From Streptomyces sannanensis (GTDB taxonomy: Bacteria > Actinomycetota > Actinomycetes > Streptomycetales > Streptomycetaceae): a stretch of DNA of 64,000 nt. The translations under genes and the position numbers were made by a program. The number at the start of each line of letters is the position of its first letter. The first letter of the stretch is position 1. The notes beneath the pieces are model-generated. The model saw only the letters and a list, made by a program, of their open reading frames with translations. It made no database searches and was not told where the DNA came from. The DNA lies in assembly GCF_039536205.1 (NCBI RefSeq), contig NZ_BAAAYL010000001.1, forward strand, positions 6,572,001 through 6,636,000, read 5' to 3'. Of the stretch, positions 8,815 through 61,500 are shown piece after piece.

Positions 8815-10566
8815 ATGACCGCCTCTCACGACGTCGTGGTGATCGGTGGCGGGGGAGCGGGGCTGCGCGCAGCCATCGCCGTCGCGGAGACCGATCCGCG
8901 GCTGAGCGTGGCGGTCATTTCGAAGGTCTACCCGATGCGCAGCCACACGGTGTCCGCCGAGGGCGGGGCCGCCGCGGTCGCCGGCGCCGACGACAGCCTC
9001 GACGAACACGCCTACGACACCGTGTCCGGCGGGGACTGGCTGTGCGACCAGGATGCCGTCGAGGCCTTCGTCCGCGAGGCGCCGCGCGAACTGTTGCGCC
9101 TTGAGCACTGGGGCTGCCCATGGAGCCGGCAGCCGGACGGGCGTATCGCGGTACGCGCCTTCGGCGGCATGAAGAAGAAGCGCACGTGGTTCGCCGCGGA
9201 CAAGACCGGGTTCCACATGCTGCACACCCTGTTCCAGACCGCCCTGTCCTACCGGGACATCGTCCGCTACGACGAGTGGTTCGTCAGCACCCTGCTCGTC
9301 GACGAGGGGAGGGTGCGCGGTGTGGTGGCGATCGAGCTGGCCACCGGCCGCGTCGAGACCATCACCGCGGGCGCAGTCGTCGTGTGCACGGGGGGCTGCG
9401 GCCGGATCTACCCGTTCACCACCAACGCCAACATCAAGACCGGCGACGGCATGGCCCTGGCCTACCGGGCCGGGGCGCCGCTGAAGGACATGGAGTTCGT
9501 CCAGTACCACCCCACAGGACTGCCCTTCACCGGAATCCTGATCACGGAGGCCGCACGTGCCGAGGGCGGATGGCTGCTCAACAAGGACGGCTACCGCTAT
9601 CTGCAGGACTACGACCTCGGCCGGCCCGAACCCGTGCCGGTGCTGCGCAGCATGGAGCTCGGACCGAGGGACCGGCTGTCGCAGGCGTTCGTGCACGAGC
9701 TCGACAAGGGCCGGACGATCCCCACCCCGCACGGGCCCGTCGTCCATCTGGACCTGCGTCATCTCGGGGCGGAACTCATCGACGGCAAGCTGCCCTTCGT
9801 ACGCGAGCTGTGTCTGAAGTACCAGAACATCGACCCGGTCGGGGAACTGATCCCGGTGCGGCCCGTCGTCCACTACATGATGGGGGGCATCCACACCGAC
9901 ATGGACGGTGCCACCGGCCTCGACGGCCTCTACGCCGCCGGTGAGGCGGCCTGCGTCAGTATCAACGGCGCCAACCGGCTGGGCTCCAACTCCCTCCCCG
10001 AGCTGCTCGTCTTCGGCGCCCGGGCCGGCCGGGCCGCCGCCGAGTACGCCGCATCCGTCGCGGGTCCGGGGCCCGGTGCCGCGATTCTGGCGCAGGGGCG
10101 CGAAGAGCGCCGCCGACTGGAGCTCGAACTGGCGCGGTACGCGGAACCCGGCCCGGAACGCATCGCGGACATCCGTATCGCGATGCAGAACACCATGGAG
10201 CGCAGCGCCGGGATCTACCGCGACGGAGCGTCCCTCGCCGGGGCGGTACAGGCGCTGCACCGGCTGCGGGAGAGGTTCGCCGGTGTCGCTGTCGGCGATC
10301 GCAGCCGGACGTTCAACACCGACTTGATCGCTCTGCTCGAACTGTCGTTCATGCTGGATGTGGCCGAGACCGTCGTCCACAGCGCGCTGCGGCGCGAGGA
10401 GTCGCGAGGCGCGCACCAGCGCACCGACTTCCCCGGCCGGGACGACCGGCGGTACCTGGCCCATTCGCTCGTCCACCGCGAACCCGACGGCAGCCCGCGG
10501 GTGGAGTACCTGCCGGTGACCGTCACCCGGTGGTCCCCCGGGGAACGCGTGTACGGGAGGCAGTAG
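8815..10566 (+). CDS. frdA: Fumarate reductase/succinate dehydrogenase flavoprotein subunit
   Basis: The 583-residue protein is the FAD subunit that interconverts fumarate and succinate. Visible features are the N-terminal dinucleotide fold [29 protein letters not shown], whose His is the usual covalent FAD attachment site; a conserved [20 protein letters not shown] block with active-site residues; [11 protein letters not shown]; and the closing [15 protein letters not shown]. It is followed immediately by iron-sulfur and two membrane-anchor genes in the order frdA-B-C-D, as in Mycobacterium tuberculosis and E. coli fumarate reductase. The direction in vivo (fumarate reduction or succinate oxidation) cannot be read from the sequence. 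Confidence 0.93.
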
Positions 10567-10568
10567 CC

Positions 10569-11324
10569 ATGACGGACACGGACAAGGACCGGATCACCCT
10601 CCAGGTGGCCCGCTACCGGCCGGAACAGGAGACCGAACCGACCTGGCAGTCGTACGAGGTGCCCCTGCGCAAGGAGTGGACGGTCCTCGACGGGCTCAAC
10701 CACATCAAGGACCATCTGGACGGCACGCTCTCCTATCGCTGGTCCTGCCGGATGGGCATCTGCGGCAGCTGCGGCATGACCGTCGACGGTGAGCCCCAGC
10801 TGAGTTGTGCCGCCTTCCTGACGGACTCGGCGCCGGGGCCGGTGCGTGTCGAGCCGCTGGGCAACTTTCCCGTCATCCGCGATCTTGTCGTCGAGATCGG
10901 CGACTTCATGAACAAGCTGACCGAGGTCAAGCCCTGGATCATCCGCCCCGAGGACAAGCCGCCCGACGAGGGCGAATATCTTCAGACCCCGGACGAGATG
11001 GACGAATTCAAGCAGTACAGCATGTGCATCAACTGCATGCTCTGCTACGCGGCCTGCCCGGTGTACGCGCTCGATCCCGAGTTCCTCGGGCCGGCCGCCA
11101 TCGCTCTCGCCCAGCGCTACAACCTCGACTCACGTGACGCGGGAGCCGCCGACCGGCGGAACGTCCTCGACTCCGCCAAGGGCGTATGGGCCTGCACCCT
11201 GGTCGGCGAGTGCAGCACGGCCTGCCCCAAGGACGTCGACCCGGCCGGGGCCATCCAGCGCTACAAGCTCACAGCGGCCACGCGATCGCTCCGAGAACTC
11301 CTCTGGCCATGGGGGGCGCGATGA
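10569..11324 (+). CDS. frdB: Fumarate reductase iron-sulfur subunit
   Basis: The 251-residue protein carries the three expected clusters: a 2Fe-2S plant-ferredoxin motif ([15 protein letters not shown], near residue 60), a 4Fe-4S set ([14 protein letters not shown], near 153), and a 3Fe-4S set ([14 protein letters not shown], near 208). It passes electrons between the flavin subunit and quinone at the membrane anchor. The ATG at 10569 follows GGGAGG, two bases after the frdA stop. Its own stop overlaps the frdC start (ATGA), so translation is coupled. Confidence 0.93.
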
Positions 11325-29611: not shown

Positions 29612-31005
29612 GGGTACCTCCTAGGGAGCCTGGCAGATGGGACTCTGAGCAGTGTTTTTGCTGGTCGGAATGGGTGAGGTCAGATATCGATCTTGGCGGT
29701 CCGTGACGGTCGGAAGCGGATTCTGGCGGTACTGATGCTGACTTTGATGACGGATCATCAGGTGACTGTGGCGGTCGGAGGTGTCTTGGCTGGATTCCTG
29801 ATGTCGGCAGTATCGACCTTGCGGCAGCGAAGGTCACGCGTGCCGACACTCGGGGCGTGCTGGTCGTGCGCCCCCTGGGCGGCGTGGGAAGGGAAGGTGG
29901 CACGGGAATGTTGTCGCCAACGGCGCGGGGTACTTCGGGTTGCGATCCCTGGTCGTTCCGGAGGACAATCGCCACTCCTCTGGAGCGGCCGAGGATCGCA
30001 ACGATCTCTGCCACGTTCGGAGTCCTCGATGGCTCACCGGCCGCAGTGCGGCATCGGGCTTTGTGGGGGTGTGGGCACCTCGACCACCGCGACCGCGGAT
30101 GCTCGCAGTCCTTGAAGGGCCGCCTGCGACGCCGCGGACGTGGTCATCGAAACGGAGCTCCTAGGCCAAGATGTCAATGCGGCCTGCACACGCGTTCAGG
30201 ACCCCGCCAGTTACTTGCACCCGGGTGCCGAAGAGGGTGGCCGCGTACAGCTGGAGGGAGCCGAAGTGGAAGCCGGGTCCCATGGTGACGCCGGTGGGGT
30301 GCCGCGGGCCCGAAGTGCGTGGTGCTGGCGTCCAGGGCCGCGCCCGTTTTGGGCGGAAGGGGCAGTTTTCCAGCCCTGCACTCTTCGGTGCCCTTCAAGT
30401 CCCTCCGGCGGATCCACTTCGTCGTTCGGAGAAGTGTTGTCTCTGGTTGGGATCTCGCCATTCTGGACGGGGTGTCTGCCAGGCGGCGAGGGGCCTGGAG
30501 GTGCGGTCCTTTCCGACGTGCTGACGGACGCGATGGTTGCGCACGCGGCCGTCCGGTAGCGGGGTGACGGTGGTGCCGACGGACCGTGATGGTTTGGCGG
30601 ACCGGTCGTGTGGCCGGTGTCGCGCGGCTGTCGTCCGGTGTCGCCGACTCCTTGGCGACGTTCGCCACCTGCTGCGGAACCGGGCGTTCACCGTGCCGGG
30701 CACCACTGCGAGTGGTGACGTGCAGATGGCTGGTTCTCGCTGGTTCGTCAGGCGTTCCGGGCGCGGTTGAGGTGCCCGGTGGGCGTGAGTTCCCTGTGGG
30801 GCACGGTTGACCGAAAAGGCCTCCTGACGCGTACTGGTCAAGATGTGGAGGGGGCTGCATGCTTTCTCTCGGTTCCCGCCGCAGCCACTGCACCCCCCCC
30901 AACCGCACGGGGCACAACTGCATATCCCGCGCACACCCCCACACACAGGGACAGGAATGGGCGGACTGAGCGTCTGTACGAACCCACTTCAACCAGGGAG
31001 AGTTC
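29612..31005. other. 1.4-kb region without a confident gene
   Basis: GC content drops compared with the neighbours and no frame shows sustained codon bias or a known motif. The best coding-like piece is a 40-codon minus-strand frame at 30161-30283 (MGPGFHFGSLQLYAATLFGT...), open for about 36 codons upstream. A 37-codon frame at 30034-30147 (MTTSAASQAALQGLRASAVA...) begins 13 bases after it behind TAGGAG. Both look like remnants. The last 200 bases should carry the protease promoter. Confidence 0.5.
30161..30283 (-). pseudogene. Coding-like remnant, 40 codons
   Basis: This minus-strand frame from ATG 30283 to TAG 30163-30161 reads MGPGFHFGSLQLYAATLFGT then RVQVTGGVLNACAGRIDILA. GC at third positions is high, unlike the surrounding DNA, and the upstream frame is open to about 30392. 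It could be the 3' end of a lost gene. I cannot name the family. Confidence 0.3.
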
Positions 31006-34999: not shown

Positions 35000-35280
35000 C
35001 GTGAATCTCCAGTCTCACCAGGGGCGTGGGCAAACTGCCAGGTCAGAGCGCCGTTCGGGCTGGCGGCCCGCTGGACGCCATCGGCGTCGAGGTGGAGCCG
35101 GTAGACGGCCGGTTCACCGGCCGCCCTCCAGCGAGCTGCGACATCCTGGACCTCTGCCCAGATGCCCCGGGGCCCGTTGCTCGTCACGTCCCATCGGTGG
35201 TAGCCGGCCGCTTTCACGCGCATCCACGACCCGCACTGCGGCGCGCCGATCGTCAGGTCCTCGGCGCGGAATTGGCGCAC
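34996..35280 (-). CDS. Hypothetical protein, about 94 residues
   Basis: The frame reads RAEDLTIGAPQCGSWMRVKA, GYHRWDVTSNGPRGIWAEVQ, then AVYRLHLDADGVQR and ends overlapping the truncated methyltransferase start. It has consistent codon bias, but I do not recognise it. TTG 35283 and GTG 35280 are both possible starts and neither has a good ribosome site. It may itself be the C-terminal part of a larger lost gene. Confidence 0.5.
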   Translation of the reverse strand: MRQFRAEDLTIGAPQCGSWMRVKAAGYHRWDVTSNGPRGIWAEVQDVAARWRAAGEPAVYRLHLDADGVQRAASPNGALTWQFAHAPGETGDSR

Positions 35281-35342
35281 CAACCCCGGGTGAAGGGCGT
35301 CCAGGGCCAGCCATACTGCCCGCCATCGACGGCCCCGGGCCT

Positions 35343-35442
35343 CGGCGCCTGCTGGAGCTCTTCGCCACCTGGCACGTCCAGCGCCGCCTGCACACCCTGG
35401 CCGACCGCGGCCCGCTCACCAGCAAGCAGATCCACCAGGCTC
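35343..35442 (+). pseudogene. Fragment of a tyrosine-recombinase-type integrase
   Basis: A plus-strand frame reads RRLLELFATWHVQRRLHTLA then DRGPLTSKQIHQA. This strongly resembles the N-terminal DNA-binding region of Streptomyces site-specific integrases, where a YATWHVLRRLR block precedes a helix before the catalytic domain. Only about 33 residues survive and catalytic residues are absent. It marks a past mobile element inside the decay zone. Confidence 0.5.
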
Positions 35443-36295
35443 CTCGTCGTGCGGGGTGCAGCACGCGGCGGCAAGCGCTGTGCGGGCCTGTGCTGCGCCG
35501 AGCACGCGGCTGCGCAGGACATGGTCGTCGTCGCTGAGACAGGGGATGACGACGAGCCGCAGCGGCGCCGTCTCCCGTACACGGGTGGAGGAGGCGCGGG
35601 CGAACGCACGTGGGGTCAGGGCCGCCTTGCGGGCGCTGCCGAAGACGTCGGGCAGGGCATGCGGGATGGGCAGGCCCTCGCGCGGAGGCAGCGCGGCTAG
35701 GGTGCCGCCACCAATCCGGACGGAGAACGGCACCCCGGCCACCGCGCCGGCGCCGGCGGTGACCAGCGCCCGGTCGGAGGCGATCAGGTCGGCTGCCGCG
35801 GGCGGCGAGCGCGGTCAGCACGGTGGTCTTGCCCGCCCCGGACGGTCCGGCAATTAGCACGCCGCGGTCGTCGAGAGCGGCGGCCGAGGCGTGAAAGACG
35901 GTCCAGCCGCGGTGCTCGGCGCAGCGCAGGACGACCTCGCGGACCACACGCATCAGGTACCGCTCTCCGCGCTCGGCCCCGGGCTCCAGCAGCACAGTCA
36001 GCCGGCCTTCCGCGTCCCGGGCGTAGAGGTGGTCCTGGGGCAGGTGCGCGTCCGGGCCGGGCCGCCACCAGGTGAGCTGGTCGAGCTGCCAGGACCGGTA
36101 CGGCTCGCCGCGGAACGGCACCACGGTCAGCGACGGGGCGCCCACGGCGCGGGCCATCCGATCGGCGAAGAGGTCCGCGTCGTGGCGGATGTGGACCGTC
36201 GTCGTCTCCCCGCACGGTGGGGCGAACAGAAGTTCAGAGGTGAAGGCCCGAACGGACCGCTCTTGGGCGGCGGCGAAGGTGGCGTCGGTGACGGT
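35416..36295 (-). pseudogene. HprK-like P-loop protein, frameshifted
   Basis: The minus strand encodes TVTDATFAAAQERSVRAF and continues to a P-loop GVLIAGPSGAGKTTVLTALA in an HPr-kinase-like context (FHASAAALDDRGVL before it). Near 35794 the frame must shift by one base to continue as ADLIASDRALVTAG, GVPFSVRIGGGTLAALP and LRLVVIPCLSDDD. The C-terminal end is also lost. No start codon fits upstream. HprK-like ATPases of this size occur in actinobacterial sugar or RiPP-type clusters. Confidence 0.6.
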
Positions 36296-36718
36296 GTGAA
36301 AGCGGCGTGGTCCATGTTGCCGATCTCGTAGCGCCAGGTCCCGAACCGGCCGCGGGGATAGATGGCGTGGGCTTCCATCCACGGCATCACCTGCGCCAGG
36401 ATCTGGTCCCTCCTCAGGGTGGGCACCGGGTAGGCATACGGGATCACCTCGACGTGGACACTGGCGAGCGGCGCCTGCTCGGGCACCAGGCCGTGACGGC
36501 GAAGCACTTGGTCACAGGAGCGGACCAGAGCATGACGGTCGAGGCCCTGGCCGCGGCCCGGGTGGAGTGCAGGTCGTGACGGCCGTCCGGAAGTCCATGG
36601 TGCGGTTCGCCGGCCGGACACCGACCACCGACGCGAGGTCGTGGCTGTACTTCCCGCAGCCCGACGGCAGGTGATGGAGGTGCTGCTGGAAGGGGTACGG
36701 CATCCACCCGTCGCCGTA
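36295..36718 (-). pseudogene. UDP-galactopyranose-mutase-like FAD oxidoreductase fragments
   Basis: Two frames carry pieces of one protein. One (36718-36566) reads YGDGWMPYPFQQHLHHLPSG, matching the YVPYPFQNN-type block. The other (about 36560-36298) reads VIPYAYPVPTLRRDQILAQV and YPRGRFGTWRYEIGNMDHAA, matching the conserved C-terminal block of this oxidoreductase family. The FAD-binding N-terminus is missing and the frame changes between the pieces. It abuts the HprK-like fragment. Confidence 0.6.
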
Positions 36719-36993
36719 GCGCGAGCCGGCGCCAGATCTCGCCGGTGCCCCCGGACGCGGGTCATTGACGTCGGTGGTGACCGGGGGCTGCCTGCCATGC
36801 TTGCCCTTGCGGGCGGCGGTGGAGCCCATCGAGGCTTGACATCGCGGATGTTTTCCCGCTCGGTCTCCGCCATGGCGGCGAATGTTTCGGTGAGAGGACT
36901 CCGGTCACCTGCCTGAGTTCTCTCAGTCGGAAGCGGGCCTGGCCCTGTTCGAGCGATGGGGCCGGGTGCCTCCTGTCCGGGTGGTGGTGGGGT

Positions 36994-44089: not shown

Positions 44090-44412
44090 TCATCGGAGGC
44101 GGCTGTTCGGCACGGGGAAGTGGCAGGCCACGCGGTGCAGTTCGTCGTGTTCGACAGGTGTCTGCCCGGGGGCAGCGGTGGAGCAGAGCGTCCGCTCGGG
44201 CAGCCGGCGCGGCCCGACGGGGCAGCGTGGGTGGAAGCGGCATCCCGGTGGAGGAAAATGCGGGTCGGCCGCCTCGCCCGGCAGAGTCGGCTCGTCCGGC
44301 ATCCGCCGAGGACTACGCAGGCACGGCACAGAGGCCAGCAGTGCCTGCGTGTACGGGTGCCGGGGGTGGCGGAGCAGAGTCTCGGTCGGTGCCGTCTCCA
44401 CGATGCGCCGCG
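44090..44412 (-). pseudogene. C-terminal fragment of an oligopeptide ABC ATPase (OppF/DppF-like)
   Basis: The frame reads [31 protein letters not shown], then [11 protein letters not shown] and VACHFP. This is the substrate-family-specific C-terminus of peptide ABC ATPases, including the [10 protein letters not shown] motif that binds an Fe-S cluster. The Walker motifs are absent. At about 44412 it joins directly to the N-terminal fragment of a permease gene. Confidence 0.7.
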
Positions 44413-46216: not shown

Positions 46217-46435
46217 CGTGCCACCGCCTGACGGTGACCGATCCCCCTCCACGGCGCAACCACCGGGAACTTGAGTCCGGTTCACCTGTTCGGGCGGGGC
46301 AGACCATTCCCCGAAGCCGTCCGTCGTATGGCGGACGCGCCGTGCGCGGGCGACGATGCCTCTGCCGACACCGCGTGGTCGTCCGGGCTTGAGGAAGGCG
46401 CCACCCCGAACAGCGACGTGCTGAAGGAGGAACGG

Positions 46436-47599
46436 ATGCGTCCTGGTTCCCGAGCCATCCACCTGGCACTCGCCTTGCTCAGCCGTGACTGGGCCGGCCT
46501 CCTCGTCGCCCTGCTGCCCGCGGTGGCCGGGGCATGGTGCGTCACCCTCGGCAGGCTTTCCGTGGTGGGAGCCGTCCTGCTCGTCGTCGCTGCCGTGCTC
46601 TGTGCAGGGTCGGTGCGTCACCTCGTGCATGTGGGCCGGATCGGGAGGCGGTATCCGCCCCCGGGCCGGATGGTCGACGTCGGCGGCCATCGCATGCACG
46701 TCCTCGCAGAGGGGGACCGCGCCGCCGGCTCCACGGTGGTGTGGATGCCCGGCGGGCACGTCGGCGGCTACGCCATGCTCCACCTGCATGTCCTCATGAG
46801 ACAGCAGGCACGTTCCGTCCTCGTCGACCGGCCCGGCACCGGGTGGAGCGATCCGGGCACCTTCCCCCGTACGACGGCGACCGAGGCCGTCGAACTGCTC
46901 GCCGCCCTGGAGCGGTCCGGTGAGAAGCCGCCGTTCGTCCTCGTCGGGCACTCCTTCGGCGGTCTGCTCGTCGCGAACGCCGCCCGACGCCGACCGGACC
47001 TCGTGGCCGGGCTCGTCCTGCTCGACCCCACGCCCCCGGACGTCATCACCTTCGGCCCGCCGGTCCCAGCCCTTCGGCACGCCGCCTACGGTCAACTGTG
47101 GAAAGCGGTACGCCATCTGTTCGGCCTCCACGGGAGGAGGCGAACCCATGCGACGGCGCCCCGCCGAGAGGAAGGCCCGACGGGGACGGACGGTGCCGTC
47201 GGTGTGCTGGACGCCGTCGAGTCCCGCACCAGGGCGGCGTGCGCCGCCGCGTCCATTTTCCGTGAGCTGTCACCCCAAGGAATGGCCAGGGTGGGCTGGC
47301 AGACCGTGCTGCACGACGGAGACCTCGGGTCACTGCCCGTGATGGTCGTGGTTCCCGGCGATCTGACGGAGGGCGAGGAGGCCCTCACCGCGGCGGGCGA
47401 CCGAGACGAGGCCGTCAGGCTGCGCCGCTTCTACACGACGGCGCGGGGCCGATACCTCACCACCTCCAGCAGGGCATGGAGGGTCCTGAGCCCGGAGGGC
47501 ACTGGTCACAACTTCCCTGACGAGGTTCCCGCGTTCGTCGTCGACGTGGTGCGTTCCATGGCCGGCGGACACCACACGAGACCGCCCTCGGCGCGGTGA
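46436..47599 (+). CDS. Membrane-anchored alpha/beta hydrolase
   Basis: The 387-residue protein has two N-terminal membrane helices (LLVALLPAVAGAWCVTLG, VVGAVLLVVAAVLCAGSV), then an alpha/beta-hydrolase domain with nucleophile VLVGHSFGGLLVANAA and a C-terminal His in EGTGHNFPDE. The substrate is unknown. AAGGAGG lies 5 bases before the ATG at 46436. The longer frame from 46271 has no such site and is rejected. Confidence 0.82.
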   Translation: MRPGSRAIHLALALLSRDWAGLLVALLPAVAGAWCVTLGRLSVVGAVLLVVAAVLCAGSVRHLVHVGRIGRRYPPPGRMVDVGGHRMHVLAEGDRAAGSTVVWMPGGHVGGYAMLHLHVLMRQQARSVLVDRPGTGWSDPGTFPRTTATEAVELLAALERSGEKPPFVLVGHSFGGLLVANAARRRPDLVAGLVLLDPTPPDVITFGPPVPALRHAAYGQLWKAVRHLFGLHGRRRTHATAPRREEGPTGTDGAVGVLDAVESRTRAACAAASIFRELSPQGMARVGWQTVLHDGDLGSLPVMVVVPGDLTEGEEALTAAGDRDEAVRLRRFYTTARGRYLTTSSRAWRVLSPEGTGHNFPDEVPAFVVDVVRSMAGGHHTRPPSAR

Positions 47600-47964
47600 C
47601 ATGCGTGCCCCGGCCTCGGCAGGGAGGCCACGGAATTCCGCGGCCGGATTCCTCGAACGGATGAAAGGTGTCACTTCCATTTGGATCCATCTGTAACGGC
47701 GCGGCTACTGCGTGTGTCCGACGGGTGGTAGGTTTCCCGGCGTGGAAAACGCATAGTTCCGTAACGTCTGTGCAGGCGGTGCGGTGTCGGCGAGGAATTC
47801 ACAGGAAGGAGCGGCGAGTTCTTCCGTAATTCACACCGATGGCAGTCGTCCATCGCACGTGCGGCGCGAATTTCGGCAGGGGCCTTCTGCCGATGACCCA
47901 TGCGCCTTTTCCGATGCCCGCAGCGGTGGGCAGCCGCCCGGCGCACACCAAGAGAGGTTCACAC
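47600..47964. other. 365-bp intergenic region
   Basis: This region lies between the hydrolase and DUF5132 genes. It contains a weak GGCCTC/GAGGCC hairpin near 47612-47629 that may terminate the hydrolase transcript, then DNA of lower GC content that probably holds the promoter for the DUF5132-ABC genes. No gene is seen. Confidence 0.45.
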
Positions 47965-48312
47965 ATGCCGCCTGTAGTACCGCCCTTTCTGATCGGTCTC
48001 ATCGCAGCCCCCTTGGCGAAGCGCATCGCCAAGCCGCTGATGCGAGGGCTCGTCAAGACCTCGGTCAGCCTGGTGATGGAAGTCAAGCGCGCCGCCAGCG
48101 AGGCGAACGAGGGCATCCACGACTTCGCCGCCGAGGTGACCGCCGAGATGATCGCCGTGCAGATGGCTCGGGACGCGCGTGTCCGGTCCGACGGCGAGAC
48201 CAAGCATGATCACGACCCCGAGGGCGACGCCGACGCCGCACCCCACGGGGAGCACGGGGCCAAGCACAGTGCGAAGCCGCGTGCGGCCGCCATCGCTGCC
48301 AAGGGGAACTGA
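47965..48312 (+). CDS. DUF5132 domain protein
   Basis: The 115-residue protein opens with MPPVVPPFLIGLIAAPLAKR, the DUF5132 signature, followed by an amphipathic helix (SVSLVMEVKRAASEANEGIH) and a His/Asp/Lys-rich tail (HDHDPEGDADAAPHGEHGAK). DUF5132 proteins are typically found next to transporters with HMA-like domains, as here. Metal-related function is inferred from this company and from the His/Asp tail. AGAGAGG precedes the ATG. Confidence 0.8.
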   Translation: MPPVVPPFLIGLIAAPLAKRIAKPLMRGLVKTSVSLVMEVKRAASEANEGIHDFAAEVTAEMIAVQMARDARVRSDGETKHDHDPEGDADAAPHGEHGAKHSAKPRAAAIAAKGN

Positions 48313-48359
48313 GCCGGGTCACTCCGGCGTAGCAGCCGCACCCCCTACGGACTGCAGGA

Positions 48360-48389
48360 TGCGGGCATCCCTCGCAGGGGGTGCCCGCA
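48360..48389 (+). terminator. Hairpin between DUF5132 and ABC exporter genes
   Basis: TGCGGGCATCCC pairs with GGGGTGCCCGCA with one mismatch and a small loop, 48 bases after the DUF5132 stop. It could attenuate or end the upstream transcript. Confidence 0.5.
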
Positions 48390-48519: not shown

Positions 48520-50823
48520 ATGACAACTCTCATGGACACGGTGGCGCGCCCGCCCGTGTACGCCGGTGTCAACGCGCGATCGGTCGTTCCGGGCCGTCAG
48601 CGCTGGGAGGCCGGACTGGTACTGAGGCGCCCCCGTCTGGCGAGAATTCTGGAGTCGGCACTCATCAGAAGCGAGGGCATCTCAAGGGCGCAGGTGAATC
48701 CGGTGACCGGGGGAGTCCTCGTCTTCCACGACGCGACGGTGAATTCCACTGAGGTCGCGCACCTGGTGCGAAGCACCGTCGCCCTCATCGCGGAGAACGT
48801 CGCGAAACTCCTGGCCGGCACGGACCCTGTCACCGACGGAAGCGCGTGTCCGTCATCGGCCGGCGCACCAGCGGTGTCCCGCAGCACCCTCTCAGGCATC
48901 GCCGTTGCCGGTGGCACGGCGGCCGTGCTCGCCGTGGGAGCCCGGAATCTGCTGAACAAGTCGATGCTGGCCTTCGGGGGTGTGGTCACGGCGACAGCCC
49001 TGATCATCCGGCGCGCCTGGCGCCGCGCCGGGGAGCACGTCGACGACGGTGCACATCAACGCGCCTCCCACCCGCTGCTGCGCATCGTGGGACGACATCG
49101 AGGGCGGCTCGCTCTGGCGTCCGTGCTGTCCGCGGTCTGTCAGATCAGCGAGATGGCGCTGAGCCTCTTCATCGGCTGGATCGCCGTCGTCCTCATCAAG
49201 GGCGAGAGCGCCATGCTCACGGGGATGGGCCTCGTCGGCGCGGCGAATCAGCTGTGGTTCCTCGCCGGAGTGACGGCCCTCGTCTGCCTCGCCGTGGCCT
49301 GCTTGTCGTACGCCTCGGGCATCGAATGGCGCACGCTCGGCCAGGCTATCCAGCACGACTGGCGCAACGAGACCTACGCGCACGTCCAGCACCTGGAACT
49401 GGGCCACCTGGAGGGCGAACGGACGACCCGTATCGCCGGCGCGCTGACCGACGACGTCAACCAGCTCGGCACCTTCTTCGCCGTCTCGGCCAACGAGGTG
49501 GTCCAGGTCGTCACCAGCTTCCTGGTCCTGGTACCCGTCTTCCTGACGCTCGCCCCGCAGATCGCCTGGATCGCCTTTCTGCCCGTACCGATCGTGGCCT
49601 GGCTCTCCTTCCACTACCACGACCGCGTCGCCGCCGACTACTCCGTCTCCAACGAGGACCGTACGAAGCTGCACAGTCGGCTCGTCAACAGCCTGGAGGC
49701 GAGCGCCACGGTCAAGAGTTTCTGCGCGGAGGACTACGAGGCGGAGCGCATCCGGGATCTCAGCGAGACGTACCGGCGCAGCAACCACCGCACCGACCAA
49801 AGCGCCGTCCAGCACACCGAGACCGTGCGTGTGTGCACCACCGCCTCCATGGCGGGCATGATGCTTCTGGGCGGCCGCGCCGTGCTGAACGGCACACTGC
49901 GCTTCGAGGTGTTCAGTCCGCTGATCGGGCTGCCCCAGCAGGTGCTGTGGCGGCTCACCCGGCTCGGGAGCACGGTCGACCAGTACCAGCGCACTCTCGC
50001 GGCCTTCGACCGCGTGGAGCGCCTTCGCGGTCTCCCCCTGGAACCCGACGGCAACGGCAAGCGGCTCGACCCCCGCGAGGTCTCGGGCGACATCGTCCTC
50101 GACCAGGTGACGTTCGCCTACCCCGGACGCCCGCCCGCCCTGGAGAACCTCTCCCTGCGCATCGCGCCGGGCAGGGTCACCGGCATCGTGGGTGCCACCG
50201 GATCCGGCAAGACCACCGTCGCCAAGCTGATCATGCGTTTTCAGGACGCCGGATCGGGCCGGGTGCTGATCGACGGTCAGGACATCCGCCATCTGCCGCG
50301 CAAGGACGTACGCAGAGCGGTCGGATTCGTGGCCCAGGATCCGTTCCTCTTCGACGGGACCATCGAGGAGAACATCTGCTACGGCACCTTCGAAGCGAGC
50401 CACGACCGTGCGGTCGAGGCCGCACGGATGGCCGAGGCCCATGGCTTCATCGAGGCGATGCCGATGCGGTACGACACTCTCATCGGCGAGCGCGGCGCCG
50501 CACTGTCCGGCGGGCAGAGGCAACGCATCGCCCTGGCCAGGGCAATCCTCAAGAACTCCCCCGTCGTCATCCTCGACGAGGCCACCTCCGCGGTCGACAA
50601 CGAGACCGAGGCGGCCATCCAGCGCACCCTCAAGGTCTTCGCCGCCGATCGCACCCTGGTCGTCATCGCGCACCGTCTGTCCACGATCCGTCAGGCCGAC
50701 TGGATCTACGTCCTCGACAAGGGCGGCGTGGTGGCCGAGGAGGGCACCCATGCCGAACTGCTCGGACATGACGGCCTGTATGCGTCCCTCTGGCGCCTAC
50801 AGGCCGGCGAGAAAGTCGCATAA
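48520..50823 (+). CDS. ABC exporter (fused permease-ATPase) with degenerate HMA-like N-terminus
   Basis: The 767-residue protein has a ~110-residue N-terminal domain of HMA-like layout without the CxxC metal motif, six membrane helices (~120-430), and an ATPase with Walker [11 protein letters not shown] (~558), signature [14 protein letters not shown] (~662) and Walker [13 protein letters not shown]. It is an exporter of the lipid A/peptide type. The gene ends 117 bp before the NRPS in the same direction, so it could export its product or act in self-resistance. Its link with DUF5132 suggests instead a metal-related or envelope role; both remain possible. Confidence 0.88.
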
Positions 50824-50939
50824 CCGCACCCGGCCGAGCCGCAGTTCACCACATTGCATGGCACTCACAGGCGGCCGTGGCCGGGACGAGCAGTGCCGGT
50901 GGAAGTAATTCTCCGTGTCATTCTCCGGAAGGTACCCCC

Positions 50940-53900
50940 ATGTCTCGTCGCGACGACGTCGCACGTCCTCTGACGGCCGCTCAGCGCGAAATCTGGTTCG
51001 CTGAACAATGCGCCGGTGGGGATAATGCGGCCTATCGCATCGGCGAGTACCTGGAAATCCATGGACCCGTCGATGCGGATGTCTTCACAACCGCCCTGCG
51101 CGCGGTCGTCGCACAGGCCGGAGCCCTCCATCTCCGCTTCCCGGACGGCGAGGAGGGAAGGCAAGGGGAGGACGGGCCGGTCCAGGTCGTCCGTCCGTCG
51201 GAAGACTGGGATTTCCCGGTTGTCGACATGAGCACGGAGGACGACCCGGGCGCGGCGGCACGCAGATGGATCGCCGCCGACATGTCCCGGCCGATGGATC
51301 TCGCGCGTGGGCCGCTGTTCCGTCACGCGCTTCTGGAACTGCGGACAGATCTTTACATCTGGTACCACGCCTATCACCACATCGTGATGGACGGGTACGG
51401 CTATTCTCTCATCGCACGCGCGGTCGCGGACACGTACACGGCGCTGATGGAGGGCCGGCCGGCCGAACGGGCCGTATTCGGATCCCTCACGGCTCTGCTG
51501 GACAACGATTCCGCCTACCGCGCCTCCGAAAGCTTCACAGCCGATCGTTCGTACTGGACGTCGCGTTTCGCCGACCTGCCGGAGCTCGCCACGTGTGCGG
51601 GCCGGGCACCGGACGTGGCGTACACCGGCACGGTACGCGGGACCGAACCGGTGACACCGGGGCGGCCGGACATCCTGACGGCGGCGGCCGAGCGGACCGG
51701 GGTGCGCTGGTCCCGGCTCCTCATCGCGGCGACGGCCCTGTACGTGCACCGCCTCACGGGATCGCGGGACGTGGTGCTGGGACTCGCCGTCGCCGCGCGC
51801 CGGGATCCCGTCCTCACCCGTGTGCCCGGTGCGGTCTCCAACGTGGTGCCGCTGCGTCTGTCCGTCCGGCCGGGTATGTCGGTGGCAGAACTGGTCGATC
51901 ACGTCAGGGACGAGGTCCGCGACGCCGTCGCGCACCAGCGGTACCGGGGCGAGGACATTCACCGGGACCTGTCGCTGCCCGGCACCATCGGCACGGCCTT
52001 CTCGCCGGTGGTCAACATCATGTCCTTCGACTACGACCTGCGGTTCGCCGGTCACCACGCCACTGCGCACAACGTCTCGGCCCTCGCCGTCTCCGACCTG
52101 GCGGTCGTCGCATGGGACAGGCGGGACGGGTCCGCACCCCACGTTGCCCTGAGGGGCGACGGCGCCCGGTACGACGACGCGACCCTCAAGGACCACCAGC
52201 AGCGGCTGATGAGGCTCCTCGACGGCCTCGCGGCCGCCGCCCCGGAGCGGCCGGTCGGCGGGATCGAGGTGCTGTCGGCAGAGGAACGGCACCGGCTGCT
52301 GGTGGAGTACAACGACACGTCGCCGTCCGTGGGCGCCGTTCCGTTGCCCGTGTCGTTCATGGCGCAGGTGCGGAAGACACCGGATGCGGTGGCCCTCGTG
52401 GCGGGGGACACGACCCTGACATTCCGGGAGCTGGACGCTCGGGCGAACCGGTTCGCGCATGTGCTGGTGGAGCGTGGGGTGGGGCCGGAGGGGGTGGTGG
52501 CGCTGGTTCTGCCGCGGTCGGTGGAGCTAGTCGTGGCGATGCTGGGTGTGATGAAGGCGGGCGCGGCGTATCTGCCGGTGGATCCGGGATATCCGCGGTC
52601 GCGGATCGCGTTCATGCTGGAGGACGCCTGCCCCGCGCTCGTGGTCGACGACCCGTCGTTCGTGTCGGCGACCGACGGCCGCCCGGACTCGGATCCGGAG
52701 GTACGGCTGGATCCGCGTCATCCGGCGTACGTCATCTACACGTCGGGTTCGACGGGGCACCCCAAGGGCGTGATGGTGAGCCACGCCGGCATCGCCGGCC
52801 TGGTGGCGGCGCAGGTGGAGCGGTTCGCCATCGACTCCGGCAGCCGGGTGCTGCAGTTCGCGTCACCGAGCTTCGACGCCTCGGTGTCCGAGCTGTACAC
52901 CGCGCTGCTGGCCGGCGCCGCGGTGGTGCTGCCGCCGCCGGGATCCCCGCTCGCGGCACTCACCGACCCGGCGGCCAGGATCACGCATGTCACCGTGGTG
53001 CCGTCGGTGCTGGCGGCCGTGCCGGAGGGCGGGCTGAACGTACGGACCCTGGTCGTGGCCGGTGAGGCGTGTCCGGCGGAGTTGGTGGAGCGTTGGGCGG
53101 CGGGCCGCCGGATGATCAATGCGTACGGTCCGACCGAGGCGACGGTGTGCGCGACGATGAGTGATCCGTTGTCGCCGGGGTCGGGGGTGCCGTCGATCGG
53201 TCGTCCGATCGCGAACACGCGGGTGTATGTGCTGGACGGTGGTCTGCGCCCGGTTCCGCCGGGTGTCGCGGGTGAGTTGTACGTCGCTGGTGGGGGACTG
53301 GCGCGTGGGTATCTGAACCGTGCGGGGTTGACGGCGGAGCGGTTCGTGGCGGATCCGTTCGGGCCGGCGGGTTCGCGGATGTACCGCACGGGTGACCTCG
53401 TGCGGTGGGGTTCGGGTGGTTGTCTGGAGTTCGTGGGGCGCGCCGATGAGCAGGTCAAGGTGCGGGGCTTCCGTATCGAACCCGGCGAGGTCGAGGCGGT
53501 GCTGTCCGCCCACCCCGATGTCGAACGGTGCGCGGTCGTGGTCCGCGAGGAGCGTCTCGTGGGCTATCTCGTGCCGGCCTGCGCGGGCGCTGTTCCGGAT
53601 CCGGAGGTGATGCGGGCACATGTCCGTGAGCGGTTGCCGGAGTACATGGTTCCGGCGGCGTTCGTGGTGCTCGAGACGCTTCCGCTGACGCCGAGCGGGA
53701 AGCTGGACCGGGCGGCGCTGCCCGAGCCGGAATTCGGCGCGGCCGAGCGGAGCAGGGCTCCGCGCACCCCGCGCGAGCAGGTGCTGGCGGAGCTGTTCGC
53801 CGAGGTGCTGGGACTGCCCGACGTCGGCGTCGACGACAGCTTCTTCGACCTGGGCGGACACTCCCTCCTCGCCATGCGCCTCATCGCGCGGATCCGTTCG

Positions 53901-56900
53901 TCCTTCGGTGTGGAACTGAGCCTGCGGACCCTCTTCGAGGCGCCGACGGTCGCCTCGCTGACGGCCCGCATGGACGGGGCCGGCACGGCCCGGCCCGCTC
54001 TGGCGGTCCGCGAGCGTCCCGACGACGTTCCGTTGTCCTTCGCGCAGCGGCGGCTGTGGTTCCTGCACCAGCTGGAGGGGCCGAGCGCGACGTACAACAT
54101 TCCACTGGCGTTGCGGTTGTCGGGGGAGCTGGACCGGGCGGCGTTGCAGGCGGCGCTGGTGGACGTGGTGGCGCGGCACGAGAGCCTGCGGACGGTGTTC
54201 GCCGAGGTGGACGGGGTGCCGTGCCAGCGTGTGCTGGACGTGGAGGCGGCCTGGCCGCGACTGCGGGTGACCCGGACACCCGAGCGGGAGCTCGAAGCTC
54301 GGCTGGATCGGGCGGCGCGGTACGCGTTCGACCTGTCGGCCGAGGCGCCGCTGCGGGCGGAGCTGTTCGAGATCGCCTCGGATGAGCACGTCCTGCTGGT
54401 GGTGGTGCATCACATCGCGGGTGACGGCTGGTCCATGGGCCCGCTCTCCCGTGACCTGACCACCGCCTATGCGGCACGCGCACGGGGAGGACAGCCGGAG
54501 TGGTCGCCGCTCGCGGTGCAGTACGCCGACTACACCCTCTGGCAGCGTGACCTCCTCGGAGACGCCGACGACCCGGACAGCCTCTTCGCCCGTCAACTCG
54601 CCCACTGGATCGAGGCACTTGCCGGGGCGCCCGATCAACTGGAGCTGCCGTTCGACCGGCCACGGCCAGCGGTTGCGTCCCACCGCGGCGGCAGGGTGAC
54701 GTTGCGGATCGAGCCGCGACTGCAACAGGCCCTGGGGGCCCTGGCACGGGACACCGGATCCAGCCTCTTCATGGTGCTCCAGGCGGGACTCGCCACTCTC
54801 CTCGGCAAGCACGGCGCCGGCACCGACATCACGACGGGCACGCCGGTCGCGGGACGTACCGACGAGGCCGCGGACAACGTCGTCGGCTTCTTCGTCAACA
54901 CGCTCGTGCTGCGAACGGACCTTTCGGGAGACCCGAGCTTCCGCGACCTGCTGGGCCGGGTCCGGGAGAACGCGCTCGCCGCCTACGCCCACCAGGACCT
55001 GCCGTTCGAACATCTCGTCGAGGCCCTGAGCCCCGTCCGGTCGATGGCCCACCATCCGCTGTTCCAGGTGATGTTCGCCCTGCAGAACGCATCTGCCGGC
55101 GACTTCGAACTCCCCGAGCTCCGCCTGTCCCCCGTGTCCGTCTTCACAGGGACCGCCAAGTTCGACCTCTTCTTCGCCGTGACCGAACGGCACGCTGCCG
55201 ACGGCGGCCCGGGCGGCCTCGACTGCGTCGTCGACTACGCGGCCGACGTGTTCGACGCCCGGACGGTCGAGTCGCTCGTGGCACGTTGGCCGAAGGTTCT
55301 GGAGGCCGTCGCGGCCGAACCGGACCGGCCTCTCCGGCAGGTCGCCGTCCTCTCCCCGCAGGAGCGGCGACAGCTCCTGGCCCCCGCCGGCACCGTACCC
55401 GCCGGAGCCGACACCACCGTCACGGCGTTGTTCGAGAGCCGGGCGGCGGCGACGCCGGACGCCGTGGCCGTCGTCTGCGACGACATCACCCTCACGTACC
55501 GTGAACTCAACAGCCGGGCGAACCGGCTCGCGCACGCCCTGATCGCGCGCGGCGCGGGCCCCGAGAAGCTGGTGGCGCTGGCCCTGCCGCGCTCCGTGGA
55601 CCTCGTCGTCGCCGTCCTCGGCGTCCTCAAGTCCGGAGCGGCGTACCTGCCGGTGGATCCCGGATACCCGCCCGCCCGTATCGCGGCCGTGCTCGACGAC
55701 GCCGGCCCGGCGCTGCTCGTCACCACGTCCTCGACCGCCGAGGGCCTGCCCGGCGGGGAAGGAACCGGGCGGCTGCTGCTCGATGACCCCGCGACGTCCA
55801 CCATCCTGGCCGGCTGCCCCGATACCGATCCCGTCACCACCGTCGCACCACAGAACACCGCCTACGTCATCTACACCTCCGGCTCGACAGGCCGGCCCAA
55901 GGGTGTTCTCGTCCCGCACCGGAACGTCGTACGGCTCTTCTCCGCCACCCGCGAGTGGTTCGGGTTCGGCGCCGACGATGTGTGGACGCTGTTCCACTCG
56001 TACGCCTTCGACTTCTCCGTCTGGGAACTCTGGGGCGCGCTGCTTCACGGTGGCCGCCTGGTCGTCGTGTCCCACGACGTCAGCCGCTCCCCCCGGCGGT
56101 TCCTGGAGCTGCTCGCACGTGAAGGCGTCACCGTGCTCAACCAGACGCCGTCCGCGTTCCACCAGCTGATGCAGACGGACTGGGAGCAGCCGGAGCCATC
56201 GGCCTCCCTGGCACTGCGCACCGTCGTCTTCGGCGGCGAGGCACTGGACATCGGACGCCTCGCCGACTGGTACGGGCGCCACGCCGACGACGCGCCGGTC
56301 CTGGTGAACATGTACGGCATCACCGAGACGACGGTGCACGTCACCTACGCTCCCCTGGACCGGCGCACCGCCGCCGAAGCCACCGCCAGCGTCATCGGCG
56401 AGCCGATTCCCGACCTGCGCACCTACGTCCTCGACGCGGCCCTGCAGCCGGTCCCGCCCGGGGTGCCGGGAGAGCTGTACGTCGCCGGAGCAGGCCTGGC
56501 CCGTGGGTATCTGCACCGCCCGGGCCTGACCGCCGCGCGGTTCGTGGCCGACCCCCACGGGCCGGCCGGGGAGCGGATGTACCGTACGGGCGACGTGGTG
56601 CGCCGGAAGGCGGCCGGCGGCCTGGAGTTCGTCGGCCGCGCCGACGACCAGGTCAAGATTCGCGGCTTCCGGATCGAACCGGGCGAGATCGAGTCTGTGC
56701 TCGCGGCGCACCCGGACGTCGCCCAGGCCGCGGTCGTGGCACGCCGGGACCGCGCCGACGACACCCGGCTCGTCGCATACGTGGTGCCCGCGTCCGGGCG
56801 GACTCTCGTGGTGGAGGAGCTGCGCGCGCGGCTGCGCGAACGGCTGCCGGAGCACATGGTCCCTGCCGCCTTCGTCCTCCTCGACACGCTGCCGCTCACG

Positions 56901-58526
56901 GCGAACGGCAAGCTGGACCGGCGCGCGCTTCCCGCCCCGGAGTTCACCTCGGGCAGCGTCCGGGCGCCGCGGACACCGCAGGAGCGGGTGCTCGCCGACC
57001 TGTTCGCCGATGTCCTCGGGCTGTCCGCGGTGGGTATGGACGACAGCTTCTTCGACCTGGGCGGCCACTCGCTGCTGGCCACCCGGCTGGCCGCCCGCAT
57101 CCGGGCGCGGCTGGGCATCGAGATGGACCTGCGGACCCTGTTCGAGGCGCCGACGGTGGCCTCCCTGGCGGGCCGCCTCGCCGGCGCCGCTCGGGCGCAG
57201 AGGAAGCTCACCGCCATGGCACGTCCCGAGCGGGTGCCGCTCTCCTTCGCGCAGCAGCGCCTCTGGTTCCTGGACCAGATGGAAGGCCCCGGCGCGACGT
57301 ACAACATCCCCTGGGCGCTGAGACTGTCCGGTCCTCTGGACCGGGCGGCGCTCGAGGCGGCCCTGAGCGACGTCGTCACACGGCACGAGACCCTGCGCAC
57401 GGTCTTTCCCGCCGTTGACGGGGTGCCCGAGCAGCACGTTCTCGACCCGGCACAGGTCCGGCCGCGCCTCGACGTCACCGAGGCCGTGGAGGCGGAGCTG
57501 CCGGAGCTGCTGGCGGAGGCCGCGCGGTACGCCTTCGACCTGGCGGGCGAACCACCGCTGCGGGCGCGGCTCTTCGCCCTCGCCCCCGACGAGCACGTGC
57601 TGCTGCTCCTGGTGCACCACATCGCCGCCGACGGCTGGTCGATGGGCCCGCTCTGTCGTGACCTGGCGACCGCGTACGCCGCTCGACGCCGGGGTGAGGA
57701 GCCCCGGTGGCCGTCGATGCCGGTGCAGTACGCCGACTACGCGCTGTGGCAGCGGCAGCTGCTGGGCGACGTCTCCGACCCGGACAGCGTCTTCGCGCGG
57801 CAGAGCGCCTACTGGAGCCGGGAACTCGCCGGTGTCCCGGAACCCTTGGAGCTCCCGATCGACCGGCCGCGGCCCGCCGTGGCCTCCTCCCTCGGAGGCC
57901 GGGTGCCCCTGCGGGTCGGCGCGGAGCTGCACGCGGCCCTGGCCGAGCTGGCTCAACGCACCGGTACCAGCCTCTTCATGGTCCTCCAGGCGGGACTCGC
58001 GGCACTGCTCGGGAAGCTCGGAGCCGGCACGGACATCCCGGTGGGAACACCGGTGGCGGGGCGTACCGACGAGGCCGCGGACGACCTGGTCGGATTCTTC
58101 GTGAACACGCTCGTGCTGCGCACTGACCTCTCCGGCGACCCCGGCTTCCGGGACCTGCTCGGGCGGGTACGGGAAACCTCGCTGGCCGCGTACGCCCACC
58201 AGGACGTCCCGTTCGAGCACCTGGTCGAGGTGCTGAAGCCCACCCGCTCCTTGGCGCACCACCCGCTGTTCCAGGTCATGCTGGCGATGCAGAACGCCGT
58301 CGGCGACGACCTCGTGCTGCCGGAACTGCGGGTGTCCCCCCCTTTCCGTCGATCTCGGTACGGCCAAGTGCGACCTGACCTTCAGCGTCGTCGAACGCCG
58401 TACCCCCGACGGTGGCCCGGACGGGCTCGGCGGGAGCGTCGAGTACGCGGCCGATCTGTTCGACACGTCGACCGTGGAGTCCGTCGTCGCGTGGTGGGTC
58501 GGGCTGTTGGAGGCCGTGGCCTCTGA
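50940..58526 (+). CDS. Nonribosomal peptide synthetase, first part (C-A-T-C-A-T-C), frame broken near its end
   Basis: From ATG 50940 (GGAAGG 7 bases before) the protein reads C1 (HHIVMDG near residue 146), A1, T1 (LGGHS, Ser975), C2 (HHIAGDG near 1157), A2, T2 (Ser2044), C3 (HHIAADG near 2226). All A domains keep the YTSGSTG and GKLDR motifs. By-eye binding-pocket codes are DASTVAAVCK for A1 (aromatic, Tyr-like) and DFWNVGMVHK for A2 (Thr). There is no epimerase domain and no loading A-T before C1, so the first C should accept an acyl or peptidyl donor from elsewhere. A +1 base in seven C at 58336-58342 shifts the frame, and this frame stops at 58526 inside C3. Confidence 0.93.
58336..58342 (+). 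other. Run of seven C that breaks the NRPS frame
   Basis: The codons around the tract would read V-S-P-L-S-V-D with six C; the window has seven. Sequence on both sides is intact NRPS in frames differing by one base. It is either an assembly or sequencing error in a homopolymer or a real disabling or recoded frameshift. Confidence 0.9.
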
Positions 58527-61500
58527 TCCCGACAGGCCGATCGGCCGGATCGACGTGCTCTCCCCGCAGGAGCGGTGCGAGCTCACGGCCGCCGGCTTCG
58601 GGCCCGTCGTGAACCTCCCCGATTCCAGCGTGACGCAGCTGTTCGAGGCCCAGGCGGAGGCGACGCCGGACGCCGTGGCCGTCCTAGCCGGAGACACCAG
58701 GCTGACGTATGCCGAACTGGACGTGCGCGCCAACCGGTTCGCCCACTTCCTGACCGAGCGCGGGGCGGGCCCCGGAACCGTGGTGGCGCTGTCGCTGCCC
58801 CGGTCGGCGGAGCTCGTGATCGCGATCCTCGGCGTCCTGAAGAGCGGTGCGGCCCACCTTCCGGTGGACCCCGACTACCCCGACGCACGTACGGCGTTCA
58901 TGCTCGACGACGCACGGCCGGTTCTCGTCGTCGACGACCCGGAAACCGTCCACGGCACGGAGCGGCTGCCCGCTGCACGACCCGTGCATGTTCCGCTGCC
59001 CCAGCAGCCCGCCTACATCGTGTACACCTCTGGTTCGACCGGCCGGCCCAAGGGTGTGGTGGTCGGCCACGGCAGCCTGGTCAACCTCTTCGAACACCAC
59101 CGCACGGCACTGTTCGCCCCCGGTACGGGGACGTCCGCCGGCCGGCCGCTGCGCGTAGCCCTCACCGCTTCGGTGTCCTTCGACGCCTCCTGGGACCAGC
59201 TGCTGTGCCTGCTCGCCGGCCATGAACTGCACGTCGTGGACGGCGAGACGTGGACCGACCCGGTCGCGCTGGTGGACCACCTGATCCGCAACCGCATCGA
59301 CATCGTCGACGTAACCCCGTCGTACCTCCAGATCCTCGTCTCCCATGGGCTGCTCGACGACCCGAGGTGGCGTCCGGCCCGCATCGTGGTCGGCGGCGAG
59401 GCCGTCCCCGAGCCGCTCTGGCAGCGCCTGCGGTCCACCGAGGGGACAGCCGGCTTCAACTTCTACGGACCGACGGAATGCACGGTCGACGCCGTCACCG
59501 CGGGCACCGACTGGGCGCCCCGGCCGGTGATCGGACGGCCGGTCAACAACGCCCGTGTCCATGTGCTCGACGCGAACCTGCGACCGGTGCCCCCCGGTGT
59601 CATCGGCGAGCTCTACATCGCGGGCGCCGGACTCGCCCACGGATACCTGGGACGGCCGGGCCTCACCGCCGAGCGGTTCACCGCGGATATCTTCGGCCCG
59701 GCCGGCTCCCGCATGTACCGCACCGGCGACCTGGTCCGTCGGCCCGCCCACGGGTACCTGGAGTTCGTCGGCCGCGCCGACGACCAGGTCAAGGTCCGCG
59801 GCTTCCGCATCGAGCCCGGTGAGATCGAGGCGGCGCTCTGCGCCCATCCCGACGTCGACCGCAGCGTGGTGACAGCCCAGGACGACCGGCTGGTCGGCTA
59901 CGTGGTGCCCGTCACCGGTCGTACGCCGCGCCTCGCGGAGCTGCGCCACCACCTCCAGCAGCGGCTCCCGGCGCACATGGTCCCCTCGGTCCTCGTGCCC
60001 CTCGACGACCTGCCGGTCACCCCCAGCGGCAAGGTGGACCGCGCCGAGCTGCCCGCCCCGGAGAACCTCCCCGCGGAGCCCGGCCGGGTACCGCGCACGC
60101 CGCAGGAACAGCTCCTCGCCGAACTGTTCGCCGACGTCCTCGGGCTGTCCGCCGTCGGCGTCGACGACAGCTTCTTCGACCTCGGCGGGCACTCCCTCCT
60201 CGCGACCCGCCTCGTCGCCCGCATCCGGACGGCTCTGGGCGTCGAGATCGAGCTGCGCGCGCTCTTCGAGACTCCCACTGTGGCCGGCCTCGCGCACCGG
60301 CTCGCCGGAGCCGATCAGGCCAGGATCGCCCTCACCCCACGACAGCGCCCTGAACGGGTGCCGCTGTCCCACGCACAGCGTCGCCTGTGGTTCCTGCACC
60401 AGCTCGAAGGCCCCAGCGCCACCTACAACATCCCCGTGGCGCTCCGCCTTTCCGGGGAAATCGACCGCGAGGCTCTCGAAGCGGCCCTCCGCGACGTCAC
60501 GGAACGGCACGAGACCCTGCGCACGGTGTTCCGGGAGCACGAAGGGACGCCCTACCAGCACATTCTGCACGCCGATGCCATGCCCGTGGGACTGACCGTC
60601 ACTCCGGCCGAAGCGGCCTGCCTGCCCGGCATGCTTGCCGAGGCCGCCGCGTACCGCTTCGACCTCGCCTCCGAACCGCCGCTGCGCGCCGAACTGTTCG
60701 CCGTCGGCCCCACGGAGCACGTACTGCTGCTCCTCCTGCACCACATCGCCGGCGACGGGTGGTCCGCGGTTCCTTTGGCATGCGACGTAGCCACGGCCTA
60801 CGCCGCACGCCGACGCGGTGAGGAGCCGTCATGGCAGCCCCTGCCGGTCCAGTACGCCGACTACACGCTGTGGCAGCGCGAGCTCCTCGGTGACGAGTCC
60901 GACCCGGACAGCCTGTTCACGCAGCAGCTCGCCCACTGGTCGGACAATCTTGCCGGGCTGCCCGAGCGGATCCAGCTGCCCACCGACAGGCCACGGCCCG
61001 CCGTCGCCTCATACCGGGGCGGCCACGTCGGCGTGGACCTGAGCCCTGAGCTCCACGCGGCGCTGACCGGCCTCGCCCGCCGGCACGGCACCAGTCTGTT
61101 CATGGTGCTCCAGGCAGGGCTGGCCGCCCTGCTCAGCCGCCATGGTGCAGGCACCGACGTCCCTCTCGGCACACCCATCGCCGGGCGCACCGACGAGGCC
61201 CTCGACGACCTCGTGGGCTTCTTCGTCAACACCCTCGTCCTGCGGACGGACACCTCCGGCGATCCCACGTTCGCCGAACTGCTCGGACGTGTGCGGGACA
61301 ACGCCCTCGCCGCCTACGCCCACCAGGACCTGCCTTTCGAGCACCTGGTGGAGGAGCTCAACCCGGCGCGGTCGCTGTCCCACCACCCCCTGTTCCAGGT
61401 CATGCTGGCCCTCCAGAACGCGCCGCTGGGCGAGTTCGACCTGCCCGGGCTGAGGCTGTCCGCGGTCCCGGTGGCCACCGGCACCGCCAAGTTCGACCTG

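Follow-up and report, generated by a model that had tools for sequence, protein, structure and literature searches.

The 64,000-nucleotide window analyzed here (positions 6572001 to 6636000 of contig C1 in the 7.83-Mb, five-contig genome of Streptomyces sannanensis) contains the first part of a nonribosomal peptide synthetase (NRPS) gene in which a run of seven C residues divides the reading frame in two. Our favored explanation, to which we assign a probability of about 0.6, is a recent and real one-base insertion at this run in a decaying spare gene cluster of the cyanopeptolin type. The run lies at exactly 58336 to 58342 on the forward strand and changes the frame by +1. It is the sole run of exactly seven C in the window; one run of eight C (30893-30900) does not appear to be coding. 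The upstream and downstream parts of the NRPS were analyzed separately throughout. A coding-frame model scored the frame switch at the run strongly on both sides (gains of 43.8 and 39.5). As far as the run, the upstream open reading frame (ORF; 50877-58526) is 89% identical over 2,488 residues to an NRPS of Streptomyces sp. NBC_01481; past it, about 60 codons are read out of frame before a stop codon that ends at 58526 is reached. The downstream +1 frame, from 58345 to genome position 6646961, is 91% identical to the same protein over 5,542 aligned positions. The Pfam Condensation family (PF00668) is found in two pieces on either side of the frame change, profile positions 4 to 362 at genome 6629231-6630307 (window 57231-58307) and 401 to 455 at genome 6630420-6630584 (window 58420-58584). 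Because the frames match on both sides and the orthologue is unbroken, the initial annotation of one NRPS split by a +1 change at a C run, inside the third condensation domain, is borne out.

In the NBC_01481 orthologue, a single uninterrupted frame of 8,063 codons encodes seven condensation domains; it was by far the nearest of 78 loci (89% identity over a 652-residue query, the next having 60%). The two genomes align here over 30.9 kb at 91.5% DNA identity, with 16 gaps, 10 of which are not multiples of three. Nine of these ten fall at 46259-48362, outside the NRPS, where they are intergenic or in the early part of longest ORFs with probably later true starts; the tenth is at the seven-C run. 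This is the sole frame-changing gap in the NRPS over the aligned stretch, all others in the gene being multiples of three; gap lengths in the NRPS were checked separately for the first 14.7 kb as well. Comparison of the tract in relatives, which the initial annotation had suggested, showed that the seven C are not shared: in NBC_01481 the site is shorter by one base and reads as a G followed by five C. Among 60 runs of at least five bases in the aligned DNA, gaps occur at two only, the seven-C site and one gap of 3 bases. No second close orthologue was found in 392 genomes of the genus, with one or two candidates scored per genome; the best-scoring sequence elsewhere is 69% identical. The 91.5% identity to NBC_01481 forms an island from window position 44407 to genome position 6647331, whereas identity is only 74-86% in the main matching blocks of a core stretch that was sampled. 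From this difference in sequence identity, it is likely that the NRPS cluster was recently exchanged horizontally between lineages.

Damaged neighbors, a paralogous cluster and the predicted pathway

Downstream of its NRPS gene, NBC_01481 has genes for MbtH, a cytochrome P450 (PF00067), a 252-residue protein with no Pfam match, a stand-alone thioesterase and a flavin oxidoreductase. MbtH and the counterpart of the 252-residue protein are kept in S. sannanensis, the latter in one 403-residue ORF together with a remnant of the P450. The remnant matches residues 1-46, 236-259 and 258-302 (in two frames) and a C-terminal piece of the 429-residue NBC_01481 P450. Judged by how the matching blocks are offset, this P450 gene lacks about 0.57 kb and about 0.30 kb relative to NBC_01481, so that an Ahp-forming P450 (Ahp, 3-amino-6-hydroxy-2-piperidone) in working form is absent from this cluster. 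The heme loop FGNGPHFCLG of two other copies of this P450, which is full-length in NBC_01481 and in the paralogous cluster described below, was not found in a three-frame translation of the remnant. A third missing block, of about 1.29 kb, takes in the stand-alone thioesterase gene and also removes one terminus of the flavin oxidoreductase gene. No match to the thioesterase was found in genome 6640001-6662800 (22.8 kb), and only residues 25-305 of the 452 in the oxidoreductase are matched, with an in-frame stop. The pathway thus carries further disabling lesions in three genes, and these are beyond the reach of homopolymer errors because the losses are far larger. Error, inactivation and slippage had all been left open by the initial annotation. 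Inactivation is favored, because other genes of the cluster, or parts of them, have been lost by such deletions and one of these genes contains a stop; with its neighbors damaged relative to NBC_01481, the NRPS is likely a recently broken spare. A one-base insertion, likely arising by strand slippage, would have lengthened the C tract and split the frame. Translation would then end at 58526 to give a two-module protein with an incomplete third condensation domain, from which the peptide would not be passed on.

The paralogous cluster lies in the terminal inverted repeats (TIRs) of contig C1. Its NRPS is an unbroken frame of 8,066 codons in which the condensation domains are similarly spaced; the protein is 61-68% identical to the split NRPS. 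The TIR cluster also holds MbtH, a P450 of 467 residues, an unassigned protein of 256 residues, an oxidoreductase of 452 residues and an ABC exporter; no match to the stand-alone thioesterase was found in it. It is present in two copies at mirrored places near both chromosome ends. All 38,648 bases compared between the copies agree, which is uninformative on the error rate because both may stem from the same reads. Its presence would have relaxed the need for the cluster with the split NRPS. A comparison of 3,000 bases at the chromosome ends themselves showed no difference. Sampling in 2-kb pieces further in found the inverted repeat present at 470, 500 and 540 kb and absent at 580, 630, 680 and 730 kb, which places the end of the TIRs between 542 and 580 kb. 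The TIRs agree wherever they were compared, and the genome carries their whole NRPS cluster twice.

The code-position residues of the adenylation domains were read in modules 2-7; module 1 is aromatic-looking and module 3 ambiguous. We take the codes of modules 2, 4, 5, 6 and 7 to be those for Thr, Pro, Phe, Tyr and Val, respectively. With the codes so assumed, the order of modules is that of an Ahp-cyclodepsipeptide synthetase: Thr, variable, Pro, Phe, Tyr, Val. A methyltransferase between the sixth adenylation and seventh condensation domains and a terminal thioesterase were also found, as Pfam families in L051:9345-16958. The module order, the module-6 methyltransferase, the adjacent MbtH gene and the P450 of the related clusters point to a cyanopeptolin-type pathway, with an Ahp-cyclodepsipeptide protease inhibitor as its predicted product. 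The intact assembly line would join a starter residue, Thr, a variable residue, Pro (to be converted to Ahp by the P450), Phe, N-methyl-Tyr and Val, with closure by the thioesterase domain. Among known systems the nearest are cyanopeptolin synthetases, with the streptopeptolin synthetase as the Streptomyces example. They resemble the predicted line in this order of Thr, variable, Pro/Ahp, Phe, N-methyl-Tyr and Val modules (on the same presumed codes), and in having the methyltransferase in the penultimate module and the thioesterase last; a P450 stands beside the NRPS in both NBC_01481 and the TIR cluster. This copy differs from them in its broken NRPS frame and destroyed P450. In the cyanopeptolin ring with which the order was compared, Thr is the usual residue ahead of a variable position, which is followed by Ahp, a fourth residue, an aromatic residue that is methylated and, in most cases, Val, Leu or Ile (PMC10608790). 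The same text names streptopeptolin as a cyanopeptolin from Streptomyces olivochromogenes, and a title cited in it attributes Ahp formation in crocapeptin to a P450 plus a helper protein (PMC10608790). According to passages in two sources, the target protease is set by the residue after Thr (PMC10608790, PMC8097286).

Assembly error, switching and recoding

Whether the seventh C could be an error of the assembly was considered in a survey of 568 kb, made up of places with C or G runs on contig C1 up to 3.78 Mb and of sampled stretches. For confidently coding runs, the frame was the same on both sides in 383 of 393 runs of five, 47 of 48 runs of six and 10 of 11 runs of seven, or 440 of 452 called runs of five to seven together. 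The exception among runs of seven is 58336-58342 itself. The exception among runs of six, at 11311-11316 of the window, is followed closely by the end of an ORF (10530-11324) and may mark a gene junction. Among 78 runs of at least seven, coding was not clear at 41 and was confined to one side at 23, and both groups were left uncalled; by length, the uncalled runs comprise 646 of five, 117 of six, 46 of seven and 18 of at least eight. In a second model, applied to 69 runs of the survey loci, a frame jump stood beside the run at two sites in L155 and at one each in L156 and L186, the last resembling a gene start.

Several observations weigh against a real insertion in a spare cluster. Ten of the 393 called runs of five likewise show a change of frame. 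Confidently coding runs of at least eight break the frame in three of three cases (18 uncalled), located in two neighboring peptidase-like genes and a transposase-like gene, all named by eye. The end of contig C3 (176800-179521, L234:2800-5521) is about 2.7 kb of A/C-rich, low-complexity DNA with several C runs of at least 20, likely an untrimmed raw long-read end. The assembly was therefore probably built from long reads and is not entirely clean; the same contig end is the likely cause of lopsided poly-C counts in the genome. PacBio-only Streptomyces assemblies are described as having 70, 295 and 335 differences from short-read-corrected ones, the vast majority of them single-base homopolymer insertions (PMC6923854). 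Within the NRPS, no second lesion was found over the aligned stretch. When one-base codon changes were polarized with the TIR paralogue as outgroup, 78 nonsynonymous and 249 synonymous changes fell on this branch and 110 and 261, respectively, on that of NBC_01481; nonsynonymous change is not in excess on this branch, and relaxed selection on the NRPS was not detected. The substitution counts therefore indicate that this NRPS has not been decaying longer than its relative, and that the break is either very recent or not real. Finally, the TIR paralogue differs in the code residues of modules 1, 3 and 7, and so the TIR cluster is not a like-for-like spare; judged by these residues, it likely makes a different member of the cyanopeptolin type.

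An uncorrected long-read homopolymer error at 58336-58342, with the synthetase gene intact in the strain and its own P450 still lost, is therefore a serious, though less probable, alternative explanation. The extra base in a C/G run is of the kind reported for PacBio-only Streptomyces assemblies (PMC6923854), and the 24-kb gene is otherwise clean and conserved. Unlike in such assemblies, however, runs of five to seven are here nearly always in frame where called: none of the ten other confidently coding runs of seven, and at most one of 48 runs of six, breaks the frame (46 and 117 uncalled, respectively). The scarcity of gaps at runs in the NBC_01481 alignment, and the undoubted lesions elsewhere in the cluster, also speak for a real insertion. 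That the NRPS was constrained until lately would be expected under an error as well as under a very young mutation that arose after or with the loss of the accessory genes. A long-dead pseudogene is unsupported, the substitution counts being without nonsynonymous excess.

Under the favored insertion, this cyanopeptolin-type cluster, probably shared by horizontal transfer, illustrates decay next to a relative that has stayed whole, and one homopolymer change would have cut its 24-kb megasynthase into two ORFs. For genome mining, two such ORFs may represent one broken synthetase, and neighboring genes should be inspected before the break is called an error. The two clusters of this genome, differing at the presumed protease-specificity module, would form a natural pair for the study of inhibitor diversification and loss.

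The frame changes in the peptidase-like genes are at a run of eight C (L155:1197-1204, C1 at about 1534438) and a run of nine G (L155:5660-5668, about 1538901), and may represent phase variation, decay or assembly error; a copy of this region was not found in NBC_01481. That of the transposase-like gene is at a run of eight G (L156:1198-1205, C1 at about 1554754).

Short G tracts are known to slip in Streptomyces, which makes the gain of a base by this route plausible: in pglX of Streptomyces coelicolor, where tract length also sets the reading frame, a tract of 8 G is reported to shorten to 7, with switching at 1e-2 to 1e-4 (PMC4365076). The seven-C run is near these lengths and the NRPS is under purifying selection, as would suit a switch by which replication slippage toggles the synthetase on and off in the population. 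We regard such a switch as unlikely. The tract is not conserved: in 29 of the 31 compared rows of homologous sites, some of which are duplicates, no C run is longer than five, and the other two rows are this site itself. Moreover, the losses in the P450, thioesterase and oxidoreductase genes are irreversible, which sets this cluster apart from pglX, and the tract is known here from one assembled length. Slightly less probable again is a contingency version, in which a minority of hyphae switch on the assembly line through slippage and the P450 acts in trans from the TIR cluster; its consequence would be the occasional release of a second protease inhibitor of different specificity.

Least probable is that ribosomes slip by +1 on CCC-C and so make some full-length synthetase. 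The tRNA-Pro is described as prone to +1 slips, studied on CCC-C, in two papers (PMC4519876, PMC7803779), and the RNA from the tract onward folds somewhat better than shuffled sequences (z of -2.2, with 7 of 200 shuffles at least as good). That fold score is modest, however, and comes from GC-rich coding DNA, and the tract is without a stop codon that would pause ribosomes. Neither the slip site nor a two-frame layout is conserved in relatives: among the best 120 of 873 protein matches, each of the top 45 is a full-length single protein of between 7,922 and 7,997 residues. The proposal in the initial annotation that the synthetase might depend on slippage at the C tract is therefore unsupported, and programmed recoding as a trait of the family was rejected on the same evidence. 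Lower entries among the 120 include shorter proteins, of which some are labelled partial and others are not. The one 100% match is the window's own ORF of 5,495 residues, and the NBC_01481 protein is not among the 120. A literature search gave no case of NRPS recoding by title, from which we do not claim its absence from print. Two working subunits were also considered and rejected; a GTG is present at 58474, but no ribosome-binding site was seen before it by eye, and the cut lies inside the third condensation domain.

Gene layout and other frame breaks

The NRPS gene spans about 24 kb and seven modules. Its likely ATG, at 50940, was placed by comparison with the NBC_01481 ORF, and it ends beyond the window at genome 6646961. 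The portion outside the window encodes modules 5-7, with the methyltransferase in module 6, and the thioesterase. Features within the window are listed in Table 1; at the place corresponding to the DUF5132 gene, the TIR cluster has an ORF of 103 residues (genome 6957858).

Table 1. Window coordinates of the split NRPS gene and its upstream neighbors (C, condensation; A, adenylation; T, thiolation domain).
Feature	Coordinates	Strand	Basis and remarks
DUF5132 protein gene	47839-48312	+	Pfam PF17195; longest ORF, true start probably later; left of cluster
ABC exporter gene, 767 residues, uninterrupted	48520-50823	+	Pfam ABC_membrane, ABC_tran; TIR counterpart 769 residues
NRPS upstream part, 2,549 residues: C1-A1-T1-C2-A2-T2-C3 (about first four fifths), out-of-frame tail, stop	50877-58526	+	ORFs, Pfam
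Condensation domain 3, cut by frame change	57231-58584	+	two PF00668 pieces
Seven-C run, +1 frame change	58336-58342	+	sequence, coding-frame model, NBC_01481 alignment
Out-of-frame tail of upstream ORF with terminal stop codon	58343-58526	+	sequence
NRPS downstream part, +1 frame: rest of C3, A3-T3, C4-A4-T4, start of C5	58345-64000	+	Pfam, alignment

The second model of the homopolymer survey also flagged gene overlaps and frame breaks at a distance from long runs elsewhere, both of which look genuine. Within the window, a further gene besides the NRPS is likely broken (35114-36873, reverse strand); it encodes a P-loop protein weakly resembling HprK-related kinases (below the cut-off); its frame seems to change near 36295 and 35793, both away from long homopolymers. 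Outside the window, an ABC-transporter-like ATPase gene (named by eye; L037:1624, C1 at about 801624) has an apparent frame break at a CACACA dinucleotide repeat, and the frame of an acetyltransferase-like gene (also named by eye; L041:18070) changes near a GGGGGAC stretch.

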